From the NCBI GenBank assembly GCA_030431515.1, contig JAUIIX010000005.1, forward strand, positions 1 through 64,000: a DNA stretch of 64,000 nt, written 5' to 3'. The translations under genes and the position numbers were made by a program. The notes beneath the pieces were generated by a model that was not told where the DNA came from, did not search any database, and worked only from the letters and a program-made list of their open reading frames with translations. Positions within the stretch are counted from its first letter, which is position 1. Each line of letters starts with the position of its first letter. Shown here piece after piece: positions 4,579-52,641 of the stretch. This DNA is from a bacterium. GTDB taxonomy: Bacteria; Bacteroidota; Ignavibacteria; Kapaibacteriales; UBA2268.

Positions 4579-5718
4579 TTAATTAAAATATTTTTTAATT
4601 TGTTCTACTAATTCTAATTGCTCCCAAGGAAATTCTTCTCTTCCGAAATGACCATAAGCAGCAGTTTGTCTAAATATTGGATTTTTTAAACCAAGTCTTT
4701 CGATAATACCTTTTGGAGTTAAATCTATATTTTCCATTATGTATTTTTCAATTTCAAAATTAGAAACTTTAGATGTTTCATGTGTATCTACATTAATAGA
4801 AACAGGGTCAGCAACACCAATAGCATAAGATAATTGAATAGTCAATTCATCAGCAACACCAGCCGCTACTAAGTTTTTAGCAATATGTCTTGACGCATAA
4901 GCTGCAGATCTATCAACTTTAGTTGAATCCTTACCAGAGAAAGCTCCACCACCGTGAGGCGCCTTTCCACCGTAAGTATCAACTATAATTTTTCTTCCAG
5001 TTAATCCAGCATCACCGTGAGGACCGCCAATAATAAACTGACCAGTTGGATTTACGTGAATTTTAGTCCTATCATCAATCAATTCTTTAGGTAAAATTTT
5101 AGTAATTACATTATCAATCAAATCATTTTTAATAGTTTCTTGAGTGATACCTTTATCGTGCTGAGTAGAAATAACAACAGCATCAACTCTAACTATATTT
5201 TTTCCATCATATTCAAGAGTAACTTGAGATTTTGAATCCGGACGTAAATAAGTCATTATTTTACCAGCTTTTCTAATCGCTGCAAGTTCTTGCAATAACT
5301 GATGAGAATATTGAATCGGTGCAGGCATTAATTCTTTAGTTTCATTATTCGCATAACCAAACATAATCCCTTGATCACCAGCTCCACCAGTATCAACTCC
5401 CATAGCAATATCATCAGATTGTTGATTTATAACATTTACAATCGCACACGACTCGCTATCAAATCTATATTCACCTTTAGTGTATCCGATATCTCTGATT
5501 ACACTTCTTGCTAAAGTTGGGATATCGATATAAGTGTTAGTAGTGATTTCACCACCAACTAATAACATACCAGTAGTAGCAAAACATTCGCAAGCCACTC
5601 TACTATTTGGGTCTTCGCTCAAACATGCATCTAAAACCGCATCTGATACTTGGTCACATAACTTGTCTGGGTGCCCTTCAGATACTGATTCTGATGTAAA
5701 AAAATTATTATTACTCAT
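4579..5718 (-). CDS. metK: S-adenosylmethionine synthetase
   Basis: Makes S-adenosylmethionine from methionine and ATP in the cytoplasm, supplying the methyltransferases encoded in this window. At 379 residues it is the normal length. Family signatures are present: [11 protein letters not shown] (13-23), [12 protein letters not shown] (112-123), and the glycine-rich [19 protein letters not shown] segment that binds phosphate. The ATG at 5718 fits the conserved N-terminus. It lies 81 bp downstream of the nucleotidyltransferase gene on the same strand. No SAM riboswitch was seen in the short upstream gap. Confidence 0.97.
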
Positions 5719-5799
5719 TCTATTTAACCTTATAATTATTGATTTTTAGTTTATTTGTTTAAAATTTTTAAAAGTAATTTTCAAGTAAGCTGTAATATA

Positions 5800-6774
5800 T
5801 TAAATTGTAATTTCACTATTACTTCCTAAATTCAATTCAGTGAATTTCCCTTCTACAATAGCATTATTTCCGATAATTGACTTATCTAAAGCCATATTAT
5901 TAACCTGAGAATTTTCGCTTATAATCGAATCTTTGATTATCGAATCTGACACCACCGACCCTTCGGCAATAGAAGCATAAGGTCCAATTACACAGTTACT
6001 AACTTTAGCATTTTCAGAAATATATGAAGGATCAATTACAACAGTATTTTCTAAATTATATTTATTATTATACTTCTCTAATAAAAAACGATTTGTAGAA
6101 AGCATAGTTTCTTTTTTACCACAATCGAACCAACCTTCAACCGGAAAACTAGTAAATGGCTCACCACTTTCAAGCATTAATTGCAAAGCATCAGTAAGTT
6201 GATATTCATTATTAGTTTTAATTTCATTTTCAATCAAAGAGTCCAAAGCAGCTTTTAACAAAGTACCATTTTGGATATAATAAATACCAACAATAGCAAG
6301 ATTAGAAACAGGAGTTTGTGGTTTTTCAACTAACTCAACAATATTATTATCATCATCAAGTAAAACAACGCCAAATCTTCTTGGGTCATCTACATATTTA
6401 ACACCAATAGAGTTAACACCACTTTTACTCGCAAGACTTAAATCAGCATCAAAAATAGTATCACCTAAGATAATCATTAATGGCTCATCATCAAAAGTAG
6501 GAGAAGCCGTCCAAATAGCGTGTCCTAAGCCAAGCAATTCCTCTTGTTCAACAAAAGTCGAGTTAAAATCATAATGAGAATTAACATATTCCTCAATCAT
6601 ATCGCCTTTGTAACCAGTAATAATAGTTACATTATCAATATTTTGCTGAACCAACTCATCAAGAATATGAGCTAAAATTGGTTTACCTGCTACATTTAAT
6701 AGCACCTTAGGAAGTGAATAAGTATGTGGTCTCAATCTACTACCAAAACCAGCAACTGGAATAACAGCTCTCAT
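5800..6774 (-). CDS. Sugar-phosphate nucleotidyltransferase
   Basis: A nucleotidyltransferase of the glucose-1-phosphate thymidylyl/uridylyl or mannose-1-phosphate guanylyl group, which makes NDP-sugars for cell-surface glycans. The signature VAGFGSRLRPHT and LPKVLLNVAGKP lie at the N-terminus, ILGDTIFD is the sugar/metal-binding segment, and VEKP follows at mid-length. The last ~80 residues are hexapeptide-like (SNCVIGPYASIAEGSVV), predicting a short left-handed beta-helix. I start at the ATG at 6774 (324 residues) because the upstream seven codons begin with TTG and precede the conserved start of the fold. The exact sugar is unknown. Confidence 0.88.
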   Translation of the reverse strand: MRAVIPVAGFGSRLRPHTYSLPKVLLNVAGKPILAHILDELVQQNIDNVTIITGYKGDMIEEYVNSHYDFNSTFVEQEELLGLGHAIWTASPTFDDEPLMIILGDTIFDADLSLASKSGVNSIGVKYVDDPRRFGVVLLDDDNNIVELVEKPQTPVSNLAIVGIYYIQNGTLLKAALDSLIENEIKTNNEYQLTDALQLMLESGEPFTSFPVEGWFDCGKKETMLSTNRFLLEKYNNKYNLENTVVIDPSYISENAKVSNCVIGPYASIAEGSVVSDSIIKDSIISENSQVNNMALDKSIIGNNAIVEGKFTELNLGSNSEITI

Positions 6775-40235: not shown

Positions 40236-43181
40236 TTATTTGTAAATATATTTTTGAAAGTCTATAAATGTATTTCTAATATATTTTAAATCGCCTAATT
40301 TTGTTTTTGCATCGCTTAATGAACCGTATTTTATCTCTAATAAGTCTGGTAGTTTTTTATCGTCTAATTCGGATACTCCTACTTCAGTGTATTGACTTAA
40401 TACGAAATTTAAAAATTCGATTATTTTTAAATCGTATTCGTTTAAATTTATTGTTGCATTGTTTGCTCTCACTGCTCTTGTTAAGATTTCTTTGTGATAT
40501 GCTATGTAGTTTAATACGTCATATACATCACTGTCAATACCATTTACTAATTTTTTGAGTTCGTTCAGTTGGTCTTCTGTATATCCTTTTTCTTCTAATC
40601 TATTTAATAATTCTCGTCTGGTGTCTGGTTTACTCCATATTTCTCTTAGTTCGTTTTCGTCTTTGAATAATGATGGAATATCCCCAAATAATTTTTTCAT
40701 AAATTCTTCTGCACTAATTGGCTTTCCGTCTGGATCCCAAAATGATGTTCCCATTACGGGTTTTATATCTCTTATTGTATTATCACTCAATTTTATTCTT
40801 ACTATGTTTCGTGGTTTTTCACAGATACAAGGATATGTTCCACAAAGTTCGCAAATTTGTGGATTAATTGTATTACATTCACAAGGTTTTTTACCACAAT
40901 CTATACATAGTTCTTTACCTCTGCCTGAGCTGATTTTTTCGATTGGTTCACCGTCCCATTCTGGGTCTTCAAATCTTTCTCGTGCTTTTACAAAATCGTA
41001 TATTGTGAAGTAATCTTTTGAATCAAATAATCTTGTTCCTCTTCCTACTATTTGCTTAAATTCTATAATTGACTTGACTGGTCTTAATAAAATTATATTT
41101 TTTACCTCTGGTGCATCTACTCCAGTTGATAATTTGAATGATGTTGTTAATATTGTAGGTATTGTTAGTTCATTATTTTGAAATTGTTTTAAATATTCTT
41201 CTCCTAATGCTCCATCATTGGCTGTAACTCTATGGCAATAATTAGGATTAGTACTATCTGCATTTTGATTAATTAAATCACGGATTAATGCTGCATGCAC
41301 TTGAGTTGAACAAAATACAAGCGTTTTGTGATTTTGATTTATCATTTTCAGAAATGTTTTTACTCTTAATAATTCTCTTTCTTCACTTATGATATTTCTA
41401 TTAAAATCACCTTCTTTATAAATTTTGTCTGGGTCTATTTCACCATCAATAATTTCATCATTATCATTATATTCATATTCACTTAGTAAATTATCAATTT
41501 CGACAACACGGAATGGAGTTAAGAAACCATCATTTATTCCTTGTTTTAATGAATATGTATAAACTGGTTCGCCAAAATATTTATATGTATCTGCATTATC
41601 TTTTCTTTTTGGAGTGGCAGTAAGACCAAGTTGAACTGCTGGCTTGAAATAATCCATAATATCACGCCAAGAACTTTCATCGTTTGCACCACCTCTATGA
41701 CACTCGTCTATTACTATCATATCAAAAAAGTCTGGTGGGTATTCTCCAAAATATGGGGACTTGCCTTCGACAAGCTCAGGCACCGAATCGACAAGCTCAG
41801 GCACCGAATCGACAAGCTCAGGCACCGAATCGACAAGCTCAGGCACCGAATCGACAAGCTCAGGCACCGAATCGACAAGCTCAGGCATCGTTTTACTTTT
41901 GGAAAGCTCTTTTAGTTTTACGATATCACCTTGTATTAATGCAATCTTCTTTGCTCTTCTCCATTTTTGAATTTGTTTTTCTCTTGCAAATGCTTCGTCA
42001 ATTCTGTCGAACGTTTCATAATAGACTAACTTAACAGGTAAATGTTTATATGTGAAATTTGCTCCTTCACCATTTTTATGTTGTTGAATTCTCAAAGTTA
42101 ATTCTGTTGTACTTCCTATATAAAAACTACCATCAGCACATTGCAGAATATACATATAGCCATAGCCATTTTCTTTTATTTCAATTTCATCAAATATAAT
42201 TTCTTGATATTGAGTTTCATAGCCATGAAGGGTGGGTGAGCTTGTCGAATAGCTATTTTCTTCTATATCTTCAGCGGTGGGTGAGCTTGTCGAATAGCTA
42301 TTTTCTTCTATATCTTCAGCGGTGGGTGAGCTTGTCGAACCCCCGCTCATAAAGGTCTGAAAGATTGTAAAGAATAAACTTCCATTTGTTGGAACTTTTT
42401 TGTTTTTTCTGATTTCTGAGGGTTTTATTCTAACTAAGGCATCTTCTGGGAATGCAGAAAAAGAGTTAAATGCTTGATTAGCAAGTATATTTCTATCTGC
42501 AAGAAATAATATTCTGGGTTGTCTTTTTCCATCTCGGTTTAGATTCCAGCGAGAGTGAAATAATTTCCATGCAATTTGAAATGCAATTGCTGTTTTTCCT
42601 GTTCCTGTTGCAAGGGTTAATAATATTCTATCTTTTTTATCTGCAATTGCTTCGGCTACTTTTGTGATTGCTATTTCTTGGTAGTATCGCAGTTTCCAAG
42701 TTCCGCCTCTATCTTCAAAAGGAACTGAAAGAATTTTGTCTTTCCAATTTGATATTTCAAGTTTTGATATTTCAGTTGATGTGGGGTAAGTCATTTCCCA
42801 AAGTTGCTCTGGAGTAGGAAATTCTGAAATTTCTCTTTCAACTCCAAGGTGCATATCAATTTCGTAAATTCCTACGCCATTGGTAGAATAAGCAAAACGA
42901 ACTTGAAGCATATCGGCGTAATTTTTTGCTTGACCAACACCATCACGAAATGATAATTCTTTTCTTTTTGCTTCGATAACTGCAAGTATTCTATTTTTGT
43001 AACGAAGAACATAATCGGCTTTTAAGGGTTTTTCTCTTCGAGCATTTCCTATCAATCGACCAATAGTTATTGCATATTGTTTGTGGACATAAGAATCCTC
43101 AATTCTATTCCAACCAACTTTATTTAGATTGGGGTCTATTAATTGATATTCTGTTTCTGCTTCATTAAGTTTAAACTTCAT
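40236..43181 (-). CDS. hsdR: Type I restriction enzyme R subunit with inserted GIY-YIG domain
   Basis: The R subunit cuts and translocates DNA for the HsdMRS complex. It has an EcoEI-like layout: nuclease core VLRYKNRILAVIEAKRK (Asp/Glu/Lys near 57-72), Walker A ATGTGKT (191-197), DECH (492-495), GLTATP (519-524) and a two-fold CxxCGxxPCxC cysteine segment before the C-terminal HsdM-binding part. Residues about 281-473 are foreign: after FTIFQTFMSGG come STSSPTAEDIEENSY repeats, a GIY-YIG domain (YMYIL 342-346, YIG 354-356, Arg364, Glu396/401), then six PELVDSV units, before KSPYFGEYPPDFFDMIVIDE resumes normal HsdR sequence. The frame is intact over 981 codons. Whether the enzyme works is unknown. 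Confidence 0.93.
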   Translation of the reverse strand: MKFKLNEAETEYQLIDPNLNKVGWNRIEDSYVHKQYAITIGRLIGNARREKPLKADYVLRYKNRILAVIEAKRKELSFRDGVGQAKNYADMLQVRFAYSTNGVGIYEIDMHLGVEREISEFPTPEQLWEMTYPTSTEISKLEISNWKDKILSVPFEDRGGTWKLRYYQEIAITKVAEAIADKKDRILLTLATGTGKTAIAFQIAWKLFHSRWNLNRDGKRQPRILFLADRNILANQAFNSFSAFPEDALVRIKPSEIRKNKKVPTNGSLFFTIFQTFMSGGSTSSPTAEDIEENSYSTSSPTAEDIEENSYSTSSPTLHGYETQYQEIIFDEIEIKENGYGYMYILQCADGSFYIGSTTELTLRIQQHKNGEGANFTYKHLPVKLVYYETFDRIDEAFAREKQIQKWRRAKKIALIQGDIVKLKELSKSKTMPELVDSVPELVDSVPELVDSVPELVDSVPELVDSVPELVEGKSPYFGEYPPDFFDMIVIDECHRGGANDESSWRDIMDYFKPAVQLGLTATPKRKDNADTYKYFGEPVYTYSLKQGINDGFLTPFRVVEIDNLLSEYEYNDNDEIIDGEIDPDKIYKEGDFNRNIISEERELLRVKTFLKMINQNHKTLVFCSTQVHAALIRDLINQNADSTNPNYCHRVTANDGALGEEYLKQFQNNELTIPTILTTSFKLSTGVDAPEVKNIILLRPVKSIIEFKQIVGRGTRLFDSKDYFTIYDFVKARERFEDPEWDGEPIEKISSGRGKELCIDCGKKPCECNTINPQICELCGTYPCICEKPRNIVRIKLSDNTIRDIKPVMGTSFWDPDGKPISAEEFMKKLFGDIPSLFKDENELREIWSKPDTRRELLNRLEEKGYTEDQLNELKKLVNGIDSDVYDVLNYIAYHKEILTRAVRANNATINLNEYDLKIIEFLNFVLSQYTEVGVSELDDKKLPDLLEIKYGSLSDAKTKLGDLKYIRNTFIDFQKYIYK
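41768..41890 (+). repeat. 21-bp tandem repeat, six units
   Basis: Units of CGACAAGCTCAGGCACCGAA plus T start at 41768, 41789, 41810, 41831, 41852 and 41873. Read in hsdR they encode PELVDSV. The outermost unit reads CCTTCGACAAGCTCAGG, the form in which this repeat is usually dispersed. Confidence 0.95.
42231..42341 (+). repeat. 45-bp tandem repeat, two and a half units
   Basis: Units starting with GGTGGGTGAGCTTGTCGAA at 42231, 42276 and 42321. Read in hsdR they encode STSSPTAEDIEENSY. Each unit contains the same CGACAAGCTCA core as the 21-bp array, inverted relative to it. Confidence 0.92.
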
Positions 43182-43243: not shown

Positions 43244-43276
43244 ATAAAGCAAATATAAAGCATCTATAAAGCAATT
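43244..43276 (+). repeat. Three 11-bp iterons, set 1
   Basis: ATAAAGCAAAT, ATAAAGCATCT and ATAAAGCAATT in exact tandem, in the 310-bp gap upstream of hsdR. An inverted TTTGCTTTAAAT follows at about 43296. Confidence 0.8.
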
Positions 43277-43458
43277 TCTATTTTTCTTGCATACTTTGCT
43301 TTAAATGACATTGAATCAATTTTGAAGAATTTAGAATCTTTATTTCAAAAATGTTTCAATTAATAATAACATAAGTGTAAATATTATTAAGTACTTATTA
43401 AACTATTAAATATAAAAATAATTTTCATTAATTAATAAAGATTATTATTTATTATTAT

Positions 43459-43491
43459 TTAAAGCAAAAATAAAGCATATTTAAAGCAATT
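43459..43491 (+). repeat. Three 11-bp iterons, set 2
   Basis: TTAAAGCAAAA, ATAAAGCATAT and TTAAAGCAATT in exact tandem, ending at the stop of the AlbA_2 gene, with an inverted TTGCTTTAAA just inside that gene. The period and TAAAGCA core are the same as set 1. The AlbA_2 gene's C-terminal winged-helix region or another HTH protein could bind here. Confidence 0.8.
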
Positions 43492-45141
43492 TTAAGGAGT
43501 ATCTTGCTTTAAAAAATATTTCATACCTCTTCTATTACCTTTAGAAACTAAAATGCCTTTTTCAACCATACTTTTTAACATTCTTTTTACTTTATATTGA
43601 TTTATTTCTAAGCCAATCCTATTATGAATTTCACTAAACCCACTTTCAGGATAAGCGCTTAAATCTTTTGATATTAATTCTTCTAAACGATAATCTTCAA
43701 TATTTTTTAAATTAGTTTTACCTTTTAAATTAATTTTTCTAAAAAGTTCTGGATTTAAAGAGTATTGCATGCCTTTACCCTTTCCAGATTTAATGATTAG
43801 TTCATAATGAATTAACCGACCTAACCAATTCCTTAAACCATCATTTTCATCCTGATTTAAAATTGAAGAAATTTCAACAGCTGATAAAGATTGATGTTGA
43901 GCTAATAATCCAAGTGAAATTATTTCTTTTTGTTTTAAATTGAACTCATTACTAACTTTATCCATCAATTTTACTATTTCTTTACTTACAAATTGCTTCT
44001 TGATTGATACAATTACTCTATCATCAGTTTCCTTCACAATAGGAATAGGTTTTCCAATTCCTAATAACTTTGCATAAATAAGGTCATAACCACTTCCTTC
44101 TTTTTCCATTAGACCTAAATCATAAAATACTTTTGATAAATGCTCATTTCTACGTATTGTCTTGCTTAAAATATTTTGTGGTGTAACACCGTAAGGAAGA
44201 ATTCCTGGGCTATGAATTTCTGTTCTATTAGGATAAATGTTAATAAAAATATCACCTCTTGTAGGATATGTTCTATGAACTAATGCGTTAACAACAAGTT
44301 CTCTTATTACTTCAATTGGAAAGAAAGGAATATTTTTTCGAAAAATACCTTCAGAAACTTCTACACTTTCTTGCCATTCTGGAACTTCGTTTAATATCTT
44401 TTCTAGAATTTCTTTTGGATTAGAGTAGTTATCATCAATCAACATTTTCCAAACTTTCTCCTCATCTTCATCATATCTGATTATTTGAACAGAAGGAGGG
44501 TATAAAAGAGATGCTCTATCATTTCGGTTTCCAATCCATAATATTCCAAGATTAGTTAAATATCCATTATCTTGGAAAAAATAATGTTCGAGTATCTCAT
44601 TATCGTTCATTTCTTTAACAAACCTGCTCACTCTTTGTGACTTTTTTATTTCAGAAATAAAAGTATTTTTCTTAATAAAATCATAATTAGTTGAAGGAAT
44701 TTTTTTTGTTGTTTGAAGTTCCCATATATATGAATTCCTTTCAGAAGCTAATCTTGCCATTTCATCAGGTGGAATAGGCTTACATACATCATAATCTCTA
44801 ATATAATATCTACCATCTGTTGTAGATGCAATTGTTTGTATATTTCTTATAACTTGAATTTTAATATATTCAGAATTATTAGATGATTTTTCAATATTTA
44901 CTAAAATACTTACATTTATTGTTCTATTATTGATATTTTGTTGAATTTTATCAGGTAAATCTTTATCTATTATCTTTTGATTTTCTGGAGGTTTATTTTC
45001 ACCATCTTCGATACCAATATAAATATACCCACCATGTGAGTTAGCAAAACAAACGCAATCTTTAGCTAATTCTGCCCACTCAGTATTTTTTTCTTTGATG
45101 AATCTGAGAGATTTTTTTTCAATATTTTTGTTTTCAATCAT
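43492..45141 (-). CDS. AlbA_2-domain ATP-binding protein (RecG-like C-terminal region)
   Basis: A 549-residue protein of the Schlafen-AlbA_2 group often found in type I restriction loci. The AlbA_2 domain at about 10-140 has TEWAELAKDCVCFANSHGGY and IYIGIEDG. A GHKL-type ATP-binding module follows around 280-390 (VNALVHRTYPTRGDIFINIY; EIHSPGILPYGV; GLMEKEGSGYDLI). Winged-helix segments lie in the last 150 residues. It is usually annotated as a putative transcriptional regulator or helicase-like protein; no helicase motifs are present. It lies between hsdS and hsdR. Confidence 0.8.
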   Translation of the reverse strand: MIENKNIEKKSLRFIKEKNTEWAELAKDCVCFANSHGGYIYIGIEDGENKPPENQKIIDKDLPDKIQQNINNRTINVSILVNIEKSSNNSEYIKIQVIRNIQTIASTTDGRYYIRDYDVCKPIPPDEMARLASERNSYIWELQTTKKIPSTNYDFIKKNTFISEIKKSQRVSRFVKEMNDNEILEHYFFQDNGYLTNLGILWIGNRNDRASLLYPPSVQIIRYDEDEEKVWKMLIDDNYSNPKEILEKILNEVPEWQESVEVSEGIFRKNIPFFPIEVIRELVVNALVHRTYPTRGDIFINIYPNRTEIHSPGILPYGVTPQNILSKTIRRNEHLSKVFYDLGLMEKEGSGYDLIYAKLLGIGKPIPIVKETDDRVIVSIKKQFVSKEIVKLMDKVSNEFNLKQKEIISLGLLAQHQSLSAVEISSILNQDENDGLRNWLGRLIHYELIIKSGKGKGMQYSLNPELFRKINLKGKTNLKNIEDYRLEELISKDLSAYPESGFSEIHNRIGLEINQYKVKRMLKSMVEKGILVSKGNRRGMKYFLKQDTP

Positions 45142-45163: not shown

Positions 45164-46297
45164 TTACAATTCTCCCTTAAATGCTTTGTCTAATAAGGAT
45201 TTTTTGAGTTCTTCTAAGTTCTCTAATTGCTTTATATACGTTGTTTCAAGTTTTTGGGTTTCGGTTAATAATTCTTCTAAAATTTTTACAATATTAGATT
45301 GTTCTTTTATTGGTGGTAATTTAATATTAATTGGCTTTACCATTGGAACAGTCAATTGTGGAATTGATGTACCACTTTGAATAAAATCATATTTAAATAG
45401 ATAAAAATATAAATAATCAATATTGATTATGGTTACATTTGGAATTACAACAATTAATCTAATTACAGGATAAAAAGTGTCTAACCTTTTTATAGGAAAT
45501 CCAATTGTACCTCTTGCAGAAATTGTAATTGATGGTTGATCTACTTTTTTAATATTCGTATAACCGTATAATCCATTATCTTTAACACCATTTGAATAAA
45601 TCGGAATAGTATAATTTTTCGTTTTAAATTTAGAAAAATCAGATTTAGGAACATCACCACCTGCAAAAATCTTTTCACATACATCTTCCAACTTCTTCTC
45701 TTCCCAACCTTTACCTTTAGTAGAAAAAATTTCATCAAGTTTTGATTGAAATAGCTCTTTAGAATTTATAAGATTTTGTTCTATATTCTTTTTAGCTTTT
45801 TCAATATTATCAAAAGCTTTATCTAATATAGATACAATTCTTTTTTGTTCTGGGAGAGGTGGGTATGTAATTTTAACTTTTTTTAATTGACCAAAATTTA
45901 AAGCAGGCATTGTTGACGAGCCTTGTGAACTTAAGTATGACTTGATTTTTTCTTGTGACAAGAATAAACTCAAATAATCATTTGTTAATTCAGTAATTCC
46001 AATTTGTATTCTAAATAAATTATTAGCAATTACACCAGATTTACCTCGACCGATTAAACCTGGTGTACCATATCTTACCATAATTATATCATTCTCATTT
46101 ACATAATATTTATCACCTGGATTAGGTATATATCTTATATCATCAGTATTTTGAGTATAATCAACAATTCTTAAAAACCTAACATAATCCTCTTTGGGTT
46201 CATATATATGATGTTCTAATCCAACTTGGATCCCTTGTCTAAATGTTGCTATCTCCCCTAAATTTTCTTCTTTCCACCCCTTCGGCAATTTAGTCAT
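45164..46297 (-). CDS. hsdS: Type I restriction specificity subunit
   Basis: HsdS chooses the target sequence. Two recognition domains are visible, each opening with a KGW-type start: LPKGWKEENLGEIATFRQG, and KGKGWEEKKLEDVCEKIFAGG at mid-length. Each is followed by a conserved helical spacer (PPLPEQKRIVSILDKAFDNI; PPIKEQSNIVKILEELL). I start at the ATG at 46297 (377 residues), nine bases after AAGGG, instead of the GTG 30 bp upstream, which lies at a repeat. Full length. Confidence 0.92.
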   Translation of the reverse strand: MTKLPKGWKEENLGEIATFRQGIQVGLEHHIYEPKEDYVRFLRIVDYTQNTDDIRYIPNPGDKYYVNENDIIMVRYGTPGLIGRGKSGVIANNLFRIQIGITELTNDYLSLFLSQEKIKSYLSSQGSSTMPALNFGQLKKVKITYPPLPEQKRIVSILDKAFDNIEKAKKNIEQNLINSKELFQSKLDEIFSTKGKGWEEKKLEDVCEKIFAGGDVPKSDFSKFKTKNYTIPIYSNGVKDNGLYGYTNIKKVDQPSITISARGTIGFPIKRLDTFYPVIRLIVVIPNVTIINIDYLYFYLFKYDFIQSGTSIPQLTVPMVKPINIKLPPIKEQSNIVKILEELLTETQKLETTYIKQLENLEELKKSLLDKAFKGEL

Positions 46298-46324
46298 AAT
46301 AATTGCCCTTATTGTATTTAAGTT

Positions 46325-46372
46325 CACTTCGACTTCGCTCAGTGAACGTTTTGAATTTGCTCAAAGAACGTT
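46325..46372. repeat. Short repeat between rhuM-like gene and hsdS
   Basis: CTTCGCTCAGTGAACGTTTT and TTTGCTCAAAGAACGTTTC are two related ~22-bp units in tandem, starting right at the stop of the rhuM-like gene. The unit TTCGACTTCGCTCAGTGAAC is the type of dispersed repeat seen elsewhere in the window. Confidence 0.5.
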
Positions 46373-47239
46373 TCATAATAATTCCTCAATAGAATTTAAA
46401 ATATTTATTACCGATGTTGTTTCTAATTTAGAGAAAGCAAACCATTTTTTACCTAAATCTTTTAACGAAGCACCTAAGTGATATACTTCATTTCCGTCAA
46501 TAATTAAAAAGCGGTCGTGGCTTTGGGTGAAAATTGTTGCACTAAACAGCCCGTATTGTTCGTTGGCTTTTTTAAGGTCTAATTCCAGTTGTTTGCTAAT
46601 ATTTTTTGTGAGTAGATGCACTTTTACTCCTTTCTCTTTTTTTGCCAAATGAGTTAAGGTATTTTCATCAATAAAATTATCAATTAAAACGATGCTTTTC
46701 TGAGCTTTTCTTATAATTCGTGAAGTTAGTTCATAGGCATCAAATATTTGCCCATCAAAAAACACCCCTTGGGTAGGAATAAGCTGTGAGTTAATATGCA
46801 AGTCTATTTGGTTGACTTTATTAGTTATATTCTCGACAGTGTTTTCAATTCTATTCATTCGCTGATTGAGTGCATAGCCTTTAAGAAGATAATCTTTTAA
46901 TCGTTGTGTAGCCCACTGACGAAACTGTGTACCTCGCTTAGAGTTTACTCGATATCCCACAGATAGTATCGCATCAAGATTATAAAAATTGATGTTTCGT
47001 TTAACATTTCTATTTCCTTCTTTTTGAACTACCGAGAAAAGCTCGGTAGTTGCTTCTTCATCTAATTCTCCATCGCTAAATATGTTTTTTAGGTGCAATC
47101 CTATCGTGTCAGTATCTTTTTCAAACAAAAAGCCCATTTGTTTTTGTGTAAGCCAAATTGTTTCTCTTTCCTCATCTATTCTTACCTCAATATGCTCTGC
47201 GAGCTCATTGGATTGATATAAAAGAATTTCATTTTTCAT
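46373..47239 (-). CDS. RhuM-family protein
   Basis: A 288-residue RhuM-like protein, commonly found in type I restriction operons and pathogenicity islands, function unsettled. The N-terminal part has IWLTQKQMGFLFEKDTDTIG and NFYNLDAILSVGYRVNSKRG, followed by FRQWATQRLKDYLLKGYALN, the RhuM signature. The C-terminal ~110 residues resemble a phospholipase-D-like half site (SIVLIDNFIDENTL; SHDRFLIIDGNEVYHLGASL), where HxK reads HDR. It starts 2 bp after hsdM. Confidence 0.85.
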   Translation of the reverse strand: MKNEILLYQSNELAEHIEVRIDEERETIWLTQKQMGFLFEKDTDTIGLHLKNIFSDGELDEEATTELFSVVQKEGNRNVKRNINFYNLDAILSVGYRVNSKRGTQFRQWATQRLKDYLLKGYALNQRMNRIENTVENITNKVNQIDLHINSQLIPTQGVFFDGQIFDAYELTSRIIRKAQKSIVLIDNFIDENTLTHLAKKEKGVKVHLLTKNISKQLELDLKKANEQYGLFSATIFTQSHDRFLIIDGNEVYHLGASLKDLGKKWFAFSKLETTSVINILNSIEELL

Positions 47240-47241
47240 AG

Positions 47242-48696
47242 CTAAACCAAACTTTTAATTTTATCTAATATCTTAGCACTTTCTTGGTCCAATGCTTCCA
47301 TTTCTTTTAAAATAACTTCAGGACTTCTAAGAGCTTCTTCTTCTGGCAAATTAGGATTTCTAACGCTAAGGTCATAAGTATTATTATCAATATCAGATAT
47401 TTTAATATTCCAAGATTTTTCAGATTCTGGTTTTGATTTTTGTAATTCAACAAATTCTTCGAGGTCATTATCATTTAATGGGTTAGTTTTTCCCATATTA
47501 CGACCTGGGTCAAGTTGGTAGTACCATATATTTTTAGTTGGCTCGCCTTTTTTGAAGAATAGAACTACAGTTTTTACACCAGCCCCAAGAAAAGTACCCG
47601 CAGGCATATCAAGTATTGTATGCAGATTTGAATTTTCGAGTAATTGTCTTCTAAGAGCTATAGAGGCATTATCTGTATTACTCAAAAAAGTATTTTTAAT
47701 AACAATAGCAGCTCTGCCACCAGATTTTAAGAATTTAATAAAATGCTGTAAAAATAGGAAGGCAGTTTCGCTTGTTTTAATATCAAAATTATCTTGAAGT
47801 TCTGGTCTTTCCTTTCCACCAAATGGAGGATTAGCAAGTATTATATTATGTCTATCTTTTTCTTGTACTGATTTTAAATCAATGCTAAGCGTATTAGTAT
47901 GAATAAGATTAGGTGCGTCAATACCATGTAGGATCATATTCATAAGACCAATTACATAAGCAAGGTTCTTTTTTTCGTAACCAAACAAAGTATCTTCTTG
48001 TAATATCTTTAAGTTTTTAGTATTTAAGTCAATTTTATTATAAAGATATTCGTAAGCTTCGCACAAGAAACCGCAAGAGCCGGCTGCACCATCATAAATA
48101 GTTTCCCCAATTTTTGGGTCAGTTACTTTAATCATAGCACGGATTAGAGGTCTTGGCGTGTAATATTGTCCACCATTTCGACCTGCATTCCCCATATTTT
48201 TAATTTTAGTTTCATATAGGTGGCTTAGTTCGTGTTTATCTTTAGTAGTTCTAAAAGGTAATTCATTTGCATATTCAATAATATCACGCAGAATATATCC
48301 ACTTTGAATTTTATTTTTTAATTCAGAGAAAATCTCACCAATTTTATATTCGATAGTTTTATTATTTTGATTAATATTTTTGAATTTCGATAGGTAAGGA
48401 AATAATTCATGGTCAACAAAATTTATTAAATCTTCACCAATAATAGCTTTCTGATGGTCGTATTTACCATTTTTATCAAGTGGATAAGCCCATGCTTCCC
48501 ATTTGAATTTATTATCTAAAATATAATTATAATCTTCGCCTCTAAGTTCTGCTTCATCAGCTCTTTCTTTTTCTAAGTCATCAAGATATTTAAGAAACAT
48601 AATCCAAGAAGTTTGCCCAATGTAGTCTAATTCGCTATCAGCCCCAGCATCTTTATAAAGTAAATCATCAATATTTTTGAAAGTTTGTTCGAACAT
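47242..48696 (-). CDS. hsdM: Type I restriction-modification methyltransferase subunit
   Basis: HsdM methylates adenine N6 at the site chosen by HsdS. Length 484. An N-terminal helical domain (FKNIDDLLYKDAGADSELDY) is followed by GQYYTPRPLIRAMI (176-189). SAM-binding motif I reads DGAAGSCGF (202-210), with Cys in place of the usual Gly, and the catalytic motif IV is NPPF (289-292). It is the first gene of the operon hsdM-rhuM-hsdS-AlbA_2-hsdR. Confidence 0.95.
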   Translation of the reverse strand: MFEQTFKNIDDLLYKDAGADSELDYIGQTSWIMFLKYLDDLEKERADEAELRGEDYNYILDNKFKWEAWAYPLDKNGKYDHQKAIIGEDLINFVDHELFPYLSKFKNINQNNKTIEYKIGEIFSELKNKIQSGYILRDIIEYANELPFRTTKDKHELSHLYETKIKNMGNAGRNGGQYYTPRPLIRAMIKVTDPKIGETIYDGAAGSCGFLCEAYEYLYNKIDLNTKNLKILQEDTLFGYEKKNLAYVIGLMNMILHGIDAPNLIHTNTLSIDLKSVQEKDRHNIILANPPFGGKERPELQDNFDIKTSETAFLFLQHFIKFLKSGGRAAIVIKNTFLSNTDNASIALRRQLLENSNLHTILDMPAGTFLGAGVKTVVLFFKKGEPTKNIWYYQLDPGRNMGKTNPLNDNDLEEFVELQKSKPESEKSWNIKISDIDNNTYDLSVRNPNLPEEEALRSPEVILKEMEALDQESAKILDKIKSLV

Positions 48697-48889: not shown

Positions 48890-49402
48890 ATGTATCAAAA
48901 CAATATAGAATATTTACAAAATTGGGATAAGAAAAGTAAAGATTATTTATTGAATTTTTATACTCAAGAAGCTAATAAAGTTAACTTTATATGTGAATTA
49001 ATTGAATATTCGAATTCTAATCCTAATGTATTAAATGCTACTACTTGGCTGATAAAGCATTTTGTTGATAATAAAAATCAAATTGATTCTATTCAAAAAG
49101 ATAAGATAATTAAACTTTTAGATATTACAAGTGAATGGGAATCACATCTTCATATTTATCAGATAATTCCTAAGTTAGAAATTAATATTTCAAATGCAAA
49201 ATATCTTGAACTAAAACTATACAAAGATTTATTTTCAAATAATAAATTTTTAAAAGCCGCCGCTTATAAAGCATATTTTGAAGTTGTAAAGTTATTTCCT
49301 GATTTGAAAAAAGAATTTATAAATATCTGTGAAAATTCACTTAAAAATGAATGTGCTTCTGTTAAAGTTAAAATTAGAAGAATATTAAAATCTATTGCTT
49401 AA
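48890..49402 (+). CDS. Hypothetical alpha-helical protein
   Basis: A 170-residue soluble protein, predicted all-helical with a HEAT-repeat-like pattern (NVLNATTWLIKHFVDNK; KAAAYKAYFEVVKLFPDLKK; VKVKIRRILKSIA). There is no signal peptide. I start at the ATG at 48890; the frame also runs 21 bp further to a TTG. It is divergent from hsdM and convergent with the lipoprotein family, overlapping its last gene by 4 bp at the 3' end. It may belong to the defence locus, but nothing shows this. Confidence 0.6.
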   Translation: MYQNNIEYLQNWDKKSKDYLLNFYTQEANKVNFICELIEYSNSNPNVLNATTWLIKHFVDNKNQIDSIQKDKIIKLLDITSEWESHLHIYQIIPKLEINISNAKYLELKLYKDLFSNNKFLKAAAYKAYFEVVKLFPDLKKEFINICENSLKNECASVKVKIRRILKSIA

Positions 49403-50487
49403 TTATCTTTGAAACCACCGCTTGTGGTTTTGAGAATTTCTCTATTACTACCAATCGCCCAGCCAGTGTTTTTATCAAGAAAATGAAAGTCTTTTATTTT
49501 TATACTATCTGGTAATTCTTGTTTTCTAAATGACAAACCACCATCCGTTGATGCAAGTAGTTCACTATTTGTTTGCGTTACATATCTTTGTAAATAGATA
49601 ATATCTTCACTTACTACTTGAATTTTTGAAAATACTAAAATATTAACAATTTCATTTAATTTTGTCCATGTTTCACCAGAATTAATAGTTTTATATATAC
49701 CATCATCATTCCAGAAATAAGCTATTTTCTCATTTAGTATTTTAAAATAATCTCTAAAATCTGTTACTTGACTATAAAAGAATGACTCTTCAAAATGTCT
49801 CGAAAAACTTATGTTAGTTTTTTTAATAGTTTTTAGTCCATCATTTGTGTAGTAAATTGTACTATCTTTCACATTTGCTAAATATCCCACTTTATCATCA
49901 AAAAATTGGATAAAAGCAATTTCGTTTTGTTTGCTATTATTCTTATTTAAATAAACAAAAGAACTATCAATTAATGTCCATTTTTGTAAATTGTTTTCAA
50001 CTTTATAAATACCGTAATTAGTAAGTAATAAACTTAAATCTTTATTTATCTTTTGAAAACATATACTATATTCTCCCTGTCTTGTGTTCATATCATAATC
50101 AAATTCTTTAGAATAATAATTTGATCCTTCATCATTTGTCCAAACAACATTTTGACCTACTTTTAAAATTAAATCTCTATAAAAATAATAGTTAGGAGCT
50201 CTAATTGTATTATGTGTTTGAATTATTTCATTCCAAGTTAGTCCAAAATCAGTTGATTTGTAATATTGTTTAAATCCTTCAAAAATACCATAATAACCTG
50301 TAGCATAGAAAACATCATCAAAAATGTATATTCTATCAAGAGTTACATCAGATTCATCTATAATATCATACTCCCCAACATTTACCCAGCCCTCTTTTTT
50401 AGTTTTGATTCTATCATCTTTTACGATATTGTCTTCATCACAAGAGAATATTAGCAATGCAAGTAGTACTATTATATACTTTTTCAT
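49399..50487 (-). CDS. Tandem lipoprotein 3, BNR/Ycf48-like propeller
   Basis: A 362-residue lipoprotein (LLALLIFSCDEDN, lipidation at Cys16) with repeated Asp-box-like segments of photosystem-stability/sialidase-type propellers: YKSTDFGLTWNEI, YKTINSGETWTKL, ASTDGGLSFRKQ. The C-terminus DKNTGWAIGSNREILKTTSG is identical to that of copy 1 at 51547. The centre differs. No catalytic residues are evident. Last of three. Confidence 0.75.
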   Translation of the reverse strand: MKKYIIVLLALLIFSCDEDNIVKDDRIKTKKEGWVNVGEYDIIDESDVTLDRIYIFDDVFYATGYYGIFEGFKQYYKSTDFGLTWNEIIQTHNTIRAPNYYFYRDLILKVGQNVVWTNDEGSNYYSKEFDYDMNTRQGEYSICFQKINKDLSLLLTNYGIYKVENNLQKWTLIDSSFVYLNKNNSKQNEIAFIQFFDDKVGYLANVKDSTIYYTNDGLKTIKKTNISFSRHFEESFFYSQVTDFRDYFKILNEKIAYFWNDDGIYKTINSGETWTKLNEIVNILVFSKIQVVSEDIIYLQRYVTQTNSELLASTDGGLSFRKQELPDSIKIKDFHFLDKNTGWAIGSNREILKTTSGGFKDN

Positions 50488-50496
50488 AATTGTTCC

Positions 50497-51534
50497 TTAA
50501 TTATCTTTAAAGCCACCGCTTGTGGTTTTGAGAATTTCGCCATTATTACCAACGGCATAAGCAATTTTATCATCTACAAATTTAAAGTCATATATTTTTA
50601 TTCCTTTTGGAGTTTCTTGAATTTCAAATGTTGCTCCACCATCTTGACTAACGTAAATTGTTGAATTCCAATCATTATCAAAATCTAAAATATATAATAA
50701 TTCTTCATTTATTGTAATAAGTTTCGAAATTTGATGAAATTTTTTATCAAATATTAATGACCAATCCTTTCCTCTGTTTGTTGATTTATATAGACCATCT
50801 CTTTTTAATATGTATAAAGTATTATTAGAAGGTATAGTTATCCATTCTCTTAATAAGGAGTTTTCATGTAAATCAATATCTTTTAAAATGTTATTATTTA
50901 CTTTAATAATTTCTTTCTTAGAATAATTATCAGATAAATAAAGAATTTGATTATCAGTAAAGTTTATTAGCATGCAGTCATTATTATCTAAGATATGAAA
51001 AAATTGATAATTATGGTTTGGTATATTCTCATTGTTTTTTGTTTCATTAAAAAAACTTGAATCGATTATTTCATAAGAAGATAAATCTGTATTCATTTTT
51101 ATAATACCTTCATCAATTGTAAGTAAATACAAATCTTGATTTTTCTTTAACCAATTAATTAAAAAGACAGAATCTATTTCTACAAAATTTTCTCCATAAT
51201 CAATCGATATTTTTGGAAAATATGTATCCCTTACTATTATATTCTCATAAATATGCATATAAAAATGACTTGAATATATATGTTCAGGCACTTGATATAA
51301 TTCTTTCTTATATAAAAATTCTCCAACTAAACCTCTTGTATTAACCATATTTATATAAAAAGTATTATCAACAACATCTAATAATCTGCTAGATGTATAA
51401 TCTTCACCAATATCTATTGAATCTATTACTACCCACCCTTCTCTCTTCTCATTAACTCTATCATCTCTAACTAAATTACCTTCATCGCAAGAGAATATTA
51501 GTAAGGCAATTAAGATTATTATATACTTTTTCAT
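50497..51534 (-). CDS. Tandem lipoprotein 2, BNR/Ycf48-like propeller
   Basis: A 345-residue paralogue. Signal and lipobox are almost the same (MKKYIIILIALLIFSCDEGN), and the very end NNGEILKTTSGGFKDN is shared. The centre is the most diverged of the three, yet keeps the propeller motifs YKSTNRGKDWSLIF and VSQDGGATFEIQ. The gap to the next gene is 9 bp and holds the ribosome-binding site AAGGAACAATT. Confidence 0.75.
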   Translation of the reverse strand: MKKYIIILIALLIFSCDEGNLVRDDRVNEKREGWVVIDSIDIGEDYTSSRLLDVVDNTFYINMVNTRGLVGEFLYKKELYQVPEHIYSSHFYMHIYENIIVRDTYFPKISIDYGENFVEIDSVFLINWLKKNQDLYLLTIDEGIIKMNTDLSSYEIIDSSFFNETKNNENIPNHNYQFFHILDNNDCMLINFTDNQILYLSDNYSKKEIIKVNNNILKDIDLHENSLLREWITIPSNNTLYILKRDGLYKSTNRGKDWSLIFDKKFHQISKLITINEELLYILDFDNDWNSTIYVSQDGGATFEIQETPKGIKIYDFKFVDDKIAYAVGNNGEILKTTSGGFKDN

Positions 51535-51546
51535 AATTGTTTTTCC

Positions 51547-52641
51547 TTAATTATCTTTAAAGCCACCGCTTGTGGTTTTGAGAATTTCTCTATTACTACC
51601 AATCGCCCAGCCAGTGTTTTTATCAAGAAAATGAAAGTCTTTTATTTTTATACTATCTGGTAATTCTTGTTTAACGAAAGATAATCCTCCATCTGTTGAC
51701 GCAAATATATCATACTCTAATCTATGCCTGTATTGTTTTACAAAAATATAGTTTTCATCTATAACTTGAACTTTATCTCTATATGCTGGAGTGAATGGAT
51801 ATAATTTATTCCACGTTTTACCAAAGTTTTCTGATTTAAATAAACCATCAGATTTTAAGAAATAAATTACATCATCACCTACAAATTTAATGTGGTTTTC
51901 AATATAATAATGAGGAAACTCTAATTGATAATCTAATAATTCATCAATGTCAAAACTATATTTATTAAATGTTTTACAAGCATCTTCTGTTGTAATTATT
52001 TGTTTATTCTCAATATCAATAAAGAATCCTTTTGATTCATTTACAAAATGCATAAATCTAATACCTGTTGTAATTATTTCTTGATTTTTATTTTTAATTT
52101 TTGAATAGTTTAATGAAGTTTCAATTCTCTCCCAAGTAGTATAGTCGTTATTTGTTGATTTATATAGTGAATGATTAGTAAATAAATAAGAACAATTAAC
52201 ATTTACTCTTGAAAAATACATAGCAAATTCAAAATCATTATCAGGATTATATGGATATATTTTAGTATTCCATGAATTACCAACATCTGTTGACCAATTT
52301 AAATTTCCAGATAATGTAACTATTAAATCTTCATAAATATAATAATTAGGATAATAATATCCAAAATTATAATCGATTGAATTCCAAGTTTTTCCTGAAT
52401 CAATTGAATTAAATAAAATTCCATGCATATCTGCTAAGTTAGGAATATCTCCAATTCCAATAAAATGACTATTAAATACTGTCATATCATTTAATAATAT
52501 ATCTTGTTCATCTATAATATCATACTCCCCAACTTTTACCCAGCCCTCTTTTTTAGCATTTACTCTATCAACTTTTACGATATTGTCTTCATCGCAAGAG
52601 AATATTAGTAAGGCAAGTAAGATTATTATATACTTTTTCAT
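51547..52641 (-). CDS. Tandem lipoprotein 1, BNR/Ycf48-like propeller
   Basis: First of the three genes, 364 residues, lipidation at Cys16. Propeller motifs: FNSIDSGKTWNSI, WSTDVGNSWNTK, FKSENFGKTWNKLY, ASTDGGLSFVKQ. Its last ~50 residues differ from copy 3 at one position, and its N-terminus through VGEYDIIDE is also close to copy 3, although copy 2 lies between. The conserved upstream element lies 23-57 bp before the start. Confidence 0.75.
   Translation of the reverse strand: MKKYIIILLALLIFSCDEDNIVKVDRVNAKKEGWVKVGEYDIIDEQDILLNDMTVFNSHFIGIGDIPNLADMHGILFNSIDSGKTWNSIDYNFGYYYPNYYIYEDLIVTLSGNLNWSTDVGNSWNTKIYPYNPDNDFEFAMYFSRVNVNCSYLFTNHSLYKSTNNDYTTWERIETSLNYSKIKNKNQEIITTGIRFMHFVNESKGFFIDIENKQIITTEDACKTFNKYSFDIDELLDYQLEFPHYYIENHIKFVGDDVIYFLKSDGLFKSENFGKTWNKLYPFTPAYRDKVQVIDENYIFVKQYRHRLEYDIFASTDGGLSFVKQELPDSIKIKDFHFLDKNTGWAIGSNREILKTTSGGFKDN

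Follow-up and report, generated by a model that had tools for sequence, protein, structure and literature searches.

The sequence analysed, called the window here, is a 64,000-nucleotide stretch of a bacterial genome of the Kapaibacteriales (GenBank assembly GCA_030431515.1, contig JAUIIX010000005.1, positions 1 to 64,000). It contains a type I restriction-modification (R-M) operon on the minus strand, in the order hsdM, rhuM-like gene, hsdS, AlbA_2 gene, hsdR. The genes are as follows:

47242..48696, minus strand: hsdM (Pfam)
46373..47239, minus strand: rhuM-like gene within the operon
45164..46327, minus strand: hsdS (Pfam)
43492..45141, minus strand: AlbA_2 gene, 549 aa, proposed reader of the iterons (Pfam, AlphaFold2, Foldseek)
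40236..43181, minus strand: hsdR, 981 aa, with an in-frame GIY-YIG insertion (Pfam)

The AlbA_2 protein consists of an SLFN_AlbA_2 domain (residues 3-123; PF04326, E 1.4e-13), a HATPase_c_4/GHKL ATPase domain (residues 297-379; PF13749, E 1.2e-15), both above the Pfam cut-off, and two C-terminal winged helices. The GIY-YIG domain of HsdR covers residues 341-412 (PF01541, E 1.6e-15) between the helicase motifs (window 41600-42350), and the insertion is flanked by in-frame peptide repeats, STSSPTAEDIEENSY before it and VPELVDS several times after it. Beside the operon, three tandem paralogous lipoprotein-like genes of about 350 aa (MKKYIIxLLALLIFSCDE...) occupy positions 49399-52641.

Two sets of short repeats, A and B, are found around the junction of the AlbA_2 gene and hsdR:

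43244..43276, minus strand: set A, three direct 11-bp units (43244-43254, 43255-43265 and 43266-43276), read from the sequence; in 11-bp steps the minus strand is TGCTTTATA
43277..43295, minus strand: core of set A between the direct and inverted units, ..TATGCAAGAAAAATAGAA..
43296..43305, plus strand: inverted unit of set A, TTGCTTTAAA
43459..43491, minus strand: set B, three direct 11-bp units (43459-43469, 43470-43480 and 43481-43491)
43504..43513, plus strand: inverted unit of set B, TTGCTTTAAA, which is TTTAAAGCAA on the minus strand

An initial annotation had described two triads in 11-bp steps starting at 43244 and 43459, each with a single inverted unit beside it, and both the triads and the inverted units are present. 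Its consensus, WTAAAGCAWWT, was somewhat too strict: all six direct units contain the 7-bp core TAAAGCA without a mismatch, while the full 11-mer fits four of them and has one mismatch in those at 43255 and 43459. It had also placed the sets on either side of the gap between the AlbA_2 gene and hsdR. Set B does abut the AlbA_2 stop codon (43492-43494), directly past it, but its inverted unit is not in the gap; it lies within the final AlbA_2 codons, where it encodes F-L-K-Q. Taken singly, the 11-mer is no great rarity (8 copies against 3.2 expected). The triad TAAAGCA-N4-TAAAGCA-N4-TAAAGCA has two exact copies in the 3.55-Mb genome, both of them here, compared to about 7e-6 expected from base composition, and the reversed control pattern has no copy in the whole genome. 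Over their 33 bp, the triads of A and B share 91% identity.

The same kind of site was found in related loci, so that the units are indeed conserved there. We fetched 64 homologues. At the 3' end of the gene, most relatives have one unit within the final codons or close to them, then a core, and then two or three reverse complements of that unit every 11 bp. The unit differs from gene to gene, and its inverted and direct forms are complementary and change together. For 45 of 63 homologues, at most one of 60 shuffles scored equally well. Exact 8-mer repeats at a lag of 11 bp occur at 37% of the gene 3' ends in the R-M set (n=63) and at 28% in an independent phylum survey of PF13749 genes (n=75), compared to 1.3-1.6% in control ORFs; by this test, about half of the broader PF13749 set is without an array. 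Within a locus, exact units are almost confined to the 3' end, and in 32 of 37 loci there was none in the 300 bp upstream of the gene with one mismatch allowed, the other loci giving single hits. Across 778 kb, 43 of 65 such arrays adjoin an AlbA_2 stop codon. The Rhodohalobacter halophilus relative has CTTTATAGA units, and distant paralogues have arrays with other units, such as TTATGTGATGG behind a subfamily ending in YIPYWA. A search of viral contigs found no relative, and phage records gave only two distant partial matches.

The layout is fixed as well. Measured from the TAT in the inverted unit to the ATA in the first direct one, the spacing is 37-39 bp for 25 of 29 loci; further direct units follow at 48-50 and 59-61 bp. 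Three loci in which the first unit is lost or altered have 49 bp, and the value of 1 at L033 is a palindromic overlap, its next values being 27, 38 and 49. The position of the stop codon, in contrast, varies over 20 bp with respect to the site. Three loci, L046, L057 and L076, have the whole site flipped relative to the gene and still retain the spacing (38/49-50/61-62) and the polarity from core to units. A chance origin, or a simple tandem duplication with no function, would find some support in the AT-rich region and in the ease with which tandem repeats arise. The lag-11 excess is family-wide and behind the AlbA_2 gene only, the geometry is fixed, and the covariation described below is convergent, all of which leave this explanation a negligible probability. 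The rarity of the triad and the lag-11 excess over control ORFs contradict chance and low complexity.

In the window, set A has the canonical spacing of the family (38/49/60 bp), and its core matches the pattern common to the cores of close relatives, xTGYAAGAAAAnnnATAAA. The spacing of set B (31/42/53) is 7 bp below canonical. The better formed of the two is set A, a short way upstream of hsdR, and set B is probably weakened as a site. Set A also reads in frame as HLKQSMQEK-stop, compared to YFIKQNMQENE-stop in relatives. The second sites of the window (set A), L025, L027 and L085 all resemble a leftover AlbA_2 C-terminus in frame, as might result from duplicated gene ends or from replacement of the gene upstream of an old end.

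Several other arrays were noted along the way. Pairs of TTATGTGAYGG-TTATGTGAT, the unit of the different AlbA_2 subfamily with the YIPYWA C-terminus, lie between AlbA_2 and hsdR in L025, L029, L030 and L031, where no YIPYWA-type gene directly precedes them. In L054, at about 4890-5340, a cassette of about 67 bp with such a pair is repeated six times behind a paralogue. In L031 the hsdR start occurs twice (5460-5840): a truncated copy comes first, followed by TTATGTGATGG pairs and then the full hsdR start. The longest array seen, at least nine tandem 11-bp units of GATTCGGAAGY, directly follows the stop codon of the PF13749 gene in L122 (G146:C1).

The initial annotation had proposed that the sets delay or limit production of HsdR relative to the methylase. 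A controller-like operator of this kind, bound by the AlbA_2 protein or another regulator, agrees with where the site lies, which in the window as in most close relatives is between the AlbA_2 gene and hsdR, with the 63 bp that separate set A from the hsdR start, and with the AlbA_2 protein as the binder. A scan for sigma-70-type promoters between the two sets stayed at the level of shuffled sequence, a scan that does not cover Bacteroidota-type promoters. Against the operator, the site trails the AlbA_2 3' end whatever gene is next, which is hsdM in L105, L110 and L180, hsdS in L102 and L103, trxA in L041, and unrelated or convergent genes elsewhere. Its distance to hsdR ranges from about 10 to more than 200 bp. 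It is also found behind solitary AlbA_2 genes (L028, L038, L039, L041, L056, L082 and rhizobial plasmids). In the Flavobacterium locus L041, an insert of about 2 kb between dnaE and trxA consists of the AlbA_2 gene, the array and some 100 bp more, with no R-M gene, and the dnaE-trxA site is empty in relatives such as L193. The array therefore travels with the AlbA_2 gene. The solitary genes with a site and the dnaE-trxA insertion speak against an hsdR operator as the main purpose, and control of HsdR as the explanation of the sets is improbable. Going by the sequence comparison, each set is one site of fixed layout that belongs to the AlbA_2 3' end and is not primarily an hsdR device.

Solitary genes of this AlbA_2-GHKL-winged-helix type lie downstream of integrase-like genes in L038, L039, L065, L067, L082 and L181, which suggests small integrative elements. 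Another explanation for the repeats is a recombination or cassette site resembling integron attC, with the gene being inserted or exchanged at the repeat behind it. These integrase-like neighbours would fit, as would the position after the stop codon, where attC also lies, the copies that read like a leftover C-terminus, and the remnants of other sites in tandem between AlbA_2 and hsdR (L025, L027, L029-L031 and L085). An attC site should mark the end of the cassette and come with an integron integrase. In the one insertion that can be compared to an empty site, the array lies inside the inserted DNA, about 100 bp short of the right junction; an integrase is absent at most loci and was not found among the proteins of the window's operon; and few arrays lie away from the gene in the 778 kb. 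Also, a code between a winged-helix residue and a base, as described next, is not expected of a recombination site. We consider a cassette site very unlikely.

The favoured candidate for binding the site is the AlbA_2 protein. Its AlphaFold2 model is of good confidence (mean pLDDT 86.9) and gives the second winged helix as helices 483-496, 502-509 and 515-527 plus wing strands, with residues 516 and 519 both on the recognition helix. The best Foldseek match of the model is 3LMM (E 3e-25), followed by SLFN14/13. 3LMM (DIP2311, from structural genomics) is the only clear solved relative by sequence or fold, with the human Schlafens next. The parts of the gene that matter here are:

43561..43599, minus strand: residues 515-527, which form the recognition helix of the second winged helix in the model
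43594-43596, minus strand: codon of Y516, in the recognition helix
43585-43587, minus strand: codon of K519, in the recognition helix, the top residue covarying with the unit

When the proteins were sorted by unit, the recognition helices fell into types: QYKVKR with CTTTATA, KHKVRR with CTCAATA, IYKVRR with CTTAATA, QRTLK with GTTGATA and RxLR types with GTCAATA. Residue 519 was the best predictor of the base before ATA among 497 alignment columns (z 34.6; next column 8.4). K519 goes with T, G or C in 30 of 30 cases and R519 with A in 18 of 20. Automated calls with no hand correction gave 26 non-A and 2 A for K, and 17 A and 3 non-A for R (Fisher 4e-8). Within the window's clade, both states obey the rule in 7 of 7 cases. 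On a tree built without the recognition-helix domain, residue 519 changed 12 times and the base 11 times, and 7-8 of 9 well-supported independent pairs were concordant and none discordant (p 0.008-0.016). The tree leaves out L174 and L176, which have mixed arrays, and eight loci with units that could not be anchored on ATA (L068, L070-L073, L075, L081 and L172); L073/L075 (GAGCCAATA with K) break the rule if they are anchored on ATA. Labels were assigned by eye in seven loci. The helices of L026, L028 and L169, read after the rule had been written down, fit it, and that of L078 does not; the exceptions to the K/R rule are L065, L067 and L078 (R with T).

A second position of the helix appears to be involved in the code. 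In the window's clade, H516 goes with CTC and Y516 or F516 with CTT, with no exception in 6 and 8 loci, though for this third base (C/T) residue 530 is as good a predictor over the 14 loci, and residue 545, which is encoded by the inverted unit itself, also ranks high. Similarity between units correlates only weakly with identity of whole domains (best 0.26, for the second winged helix), and the covariation is clear only at the level of single residues. Variation of the unit is unlikely to come from HsdS specificity, given the solitary genes with no HsdS. In close relatives within one genus (L171 and L173-L176), the first inverted unit is TTATCGAC with K and TTATTGAC with R at the code residue while the downstream direct units still have another base, which looks like a switch in progress.

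The repeats could also act as RNA, with alternative hairpins at the mRNA 3' end affecting termination of the transcript, its stability or its processing, for which the Schlafen domain might be responsible. The complementary inverted and direct units that change together would allow this, Schlafen proteins are RNases, and the RNA-binding tandem winged helices of SelB are among the weak fold matches of the AlbA_2 protein. An Rfam scan of the site gave no match, and the site contains no terminator-like G+C-rich hairpin with a U-tract. An RNA element would have no need of the geometry and polarity that the flipped sites of L046, L057 and L076 keep; the same geometry in flipped sites therefore indicates that DNA is read, not RNA. 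The covariation, too, is with a winged-helix recognition helix. A role as RNA is highly improbable.

The initial annotation had suggested that the phased units are read by a local HTH protein and had named the AlbA_2 protein as a candidate. The covariation supports the first suggestion and points to exactly this protein. Because the unit covaries with residue 519 and the tree contrasts are concordant, the AlbA_2 protein itself very probably binds these iterons. That both sets are copies of one site, bound through the recognition helix of the last winged helix, which would read each unit, is in our view likely. The two or three direct units, about 38 bp beyond the inverted unit, lie on almost one face of the helix. 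The AlbA_2 protein, as an ATP-dependent dimer or oligomer, could bridge the inverted and direct units, with the GHKL ATPase dimerizing with ATP and two winged helices then holding one kind of unit each. Two sites in tandem could form a loop in some loci. The bridged protein would sit on its own locus in cis and limit its own activity or output, and in hsd operons it could also touch hsdR as the next gene. The benefit might be a store of latent Schlafen RNase, an activity expected from the family, local transcriptional control, or both. Storage is attractive because proteins of this architecture are likely phage-activated RNases, according to the passages on them in PMC12839542, and PrrC occupies the same operon slot. 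One form of storage is a tether in cis, in which the sites keep the latent RNase parked on its own gene and release leads to tRNA cleavage and growth arrest. The RNase would be freed when host DNA is lost, or when the bound state is lost under phage attack, and a private address for each gene would allow paralogues in one cell with no cross-talk. We regard this specific form as speculative and rather unlikely.

A widespread and little-understood architecture of defence-island proteins thus appears to have its own DNA address directly behind the gene. The helix-to-base code at residues 516 and 519 is readable and should make sites predictable from protein sequence alone. It is open to test by single substitutions, and the site gives a ready binding assay, offering a way into how bacterial Schlafen proteins are held in check. 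Iteron-type protein-DNA sites are a known kind. A search for the family together with operators or direct repeats, limited to published open-licence papers, turned up no account of sites like these. Within that scope, the novel features are the position of the site behind the gene, its fixed arrangement of inverted and direct units, its spread across the family, and the code.

Partition centromeres and replication iterons (ParR/parC, TubR/tubC and Rep) are likewise direct repeats of 11 to 12 bp adjoining the gene of their binder. The AlbA_2 sites differ in being chromosomal, with two or three units and one inverted unit at a fixed distance, and the AlbA_2 protein has no Par or Rep domain. The C proteins of type II R-M systems, and of the Mycoplasma gallisepticum hsd locus, which has a C-family gene (PMC12707154), resemble the AlbA_2 protein if it is indeed an HTH protein that binds repeated sites in its own R-M locus. 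C proteins are small and work at the promoter upstream of their own gene, whereas the AlbA_2 protein has 549 aa and its units lie behind the gene, also where there is no R-M system.

PrrC of EcoprrI is an ABC-ATPase anticodon nuclease, a latent tRNase silenced by the Hsd complex, and its gene order is hsdM-hsdS-prrC-hsdR (PMC3014915, PMC3874165). The AlbA_2 gene is in the slot of prrC, between hsdS and hsdR of a type I R-M operon, and by analogy its product may be a latent RNase in a restriction locus. It has other domains and its own DNA sites; Pfam gives only the AlbA_2 and GHKL domains and neither the ABC-ATPase nor the anticodon nuclease domain of PrrC/RloC. The closest known counterparts are the COG2865-type proteins, which combine a Schlafen RNase, a minimal histidine kinase (GHKL) and a wHTH. 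The passages of PMC12839542 that deal with them link them to BREX and related systems, report them from the neighbourhood of defence loci in at least 1017 taxa, and cite a preprint in which bacterial Schlafens act against phage. Those passages mention no cognate DNA site, 3'-end iterons or recognition code, and the host system here is type I R-M or none, in contrast to the BREX-linked proteins that they describe. The AlbA_2 protein of the window has the same domain order as these proteins, judged by Pfam and the AlphaFold2 model, and it shares with the COG2865 type the SLFN_AlbA_2 and HATPase_c_4 domains, the C-terminal winged helix and the 3LMM-like fold.
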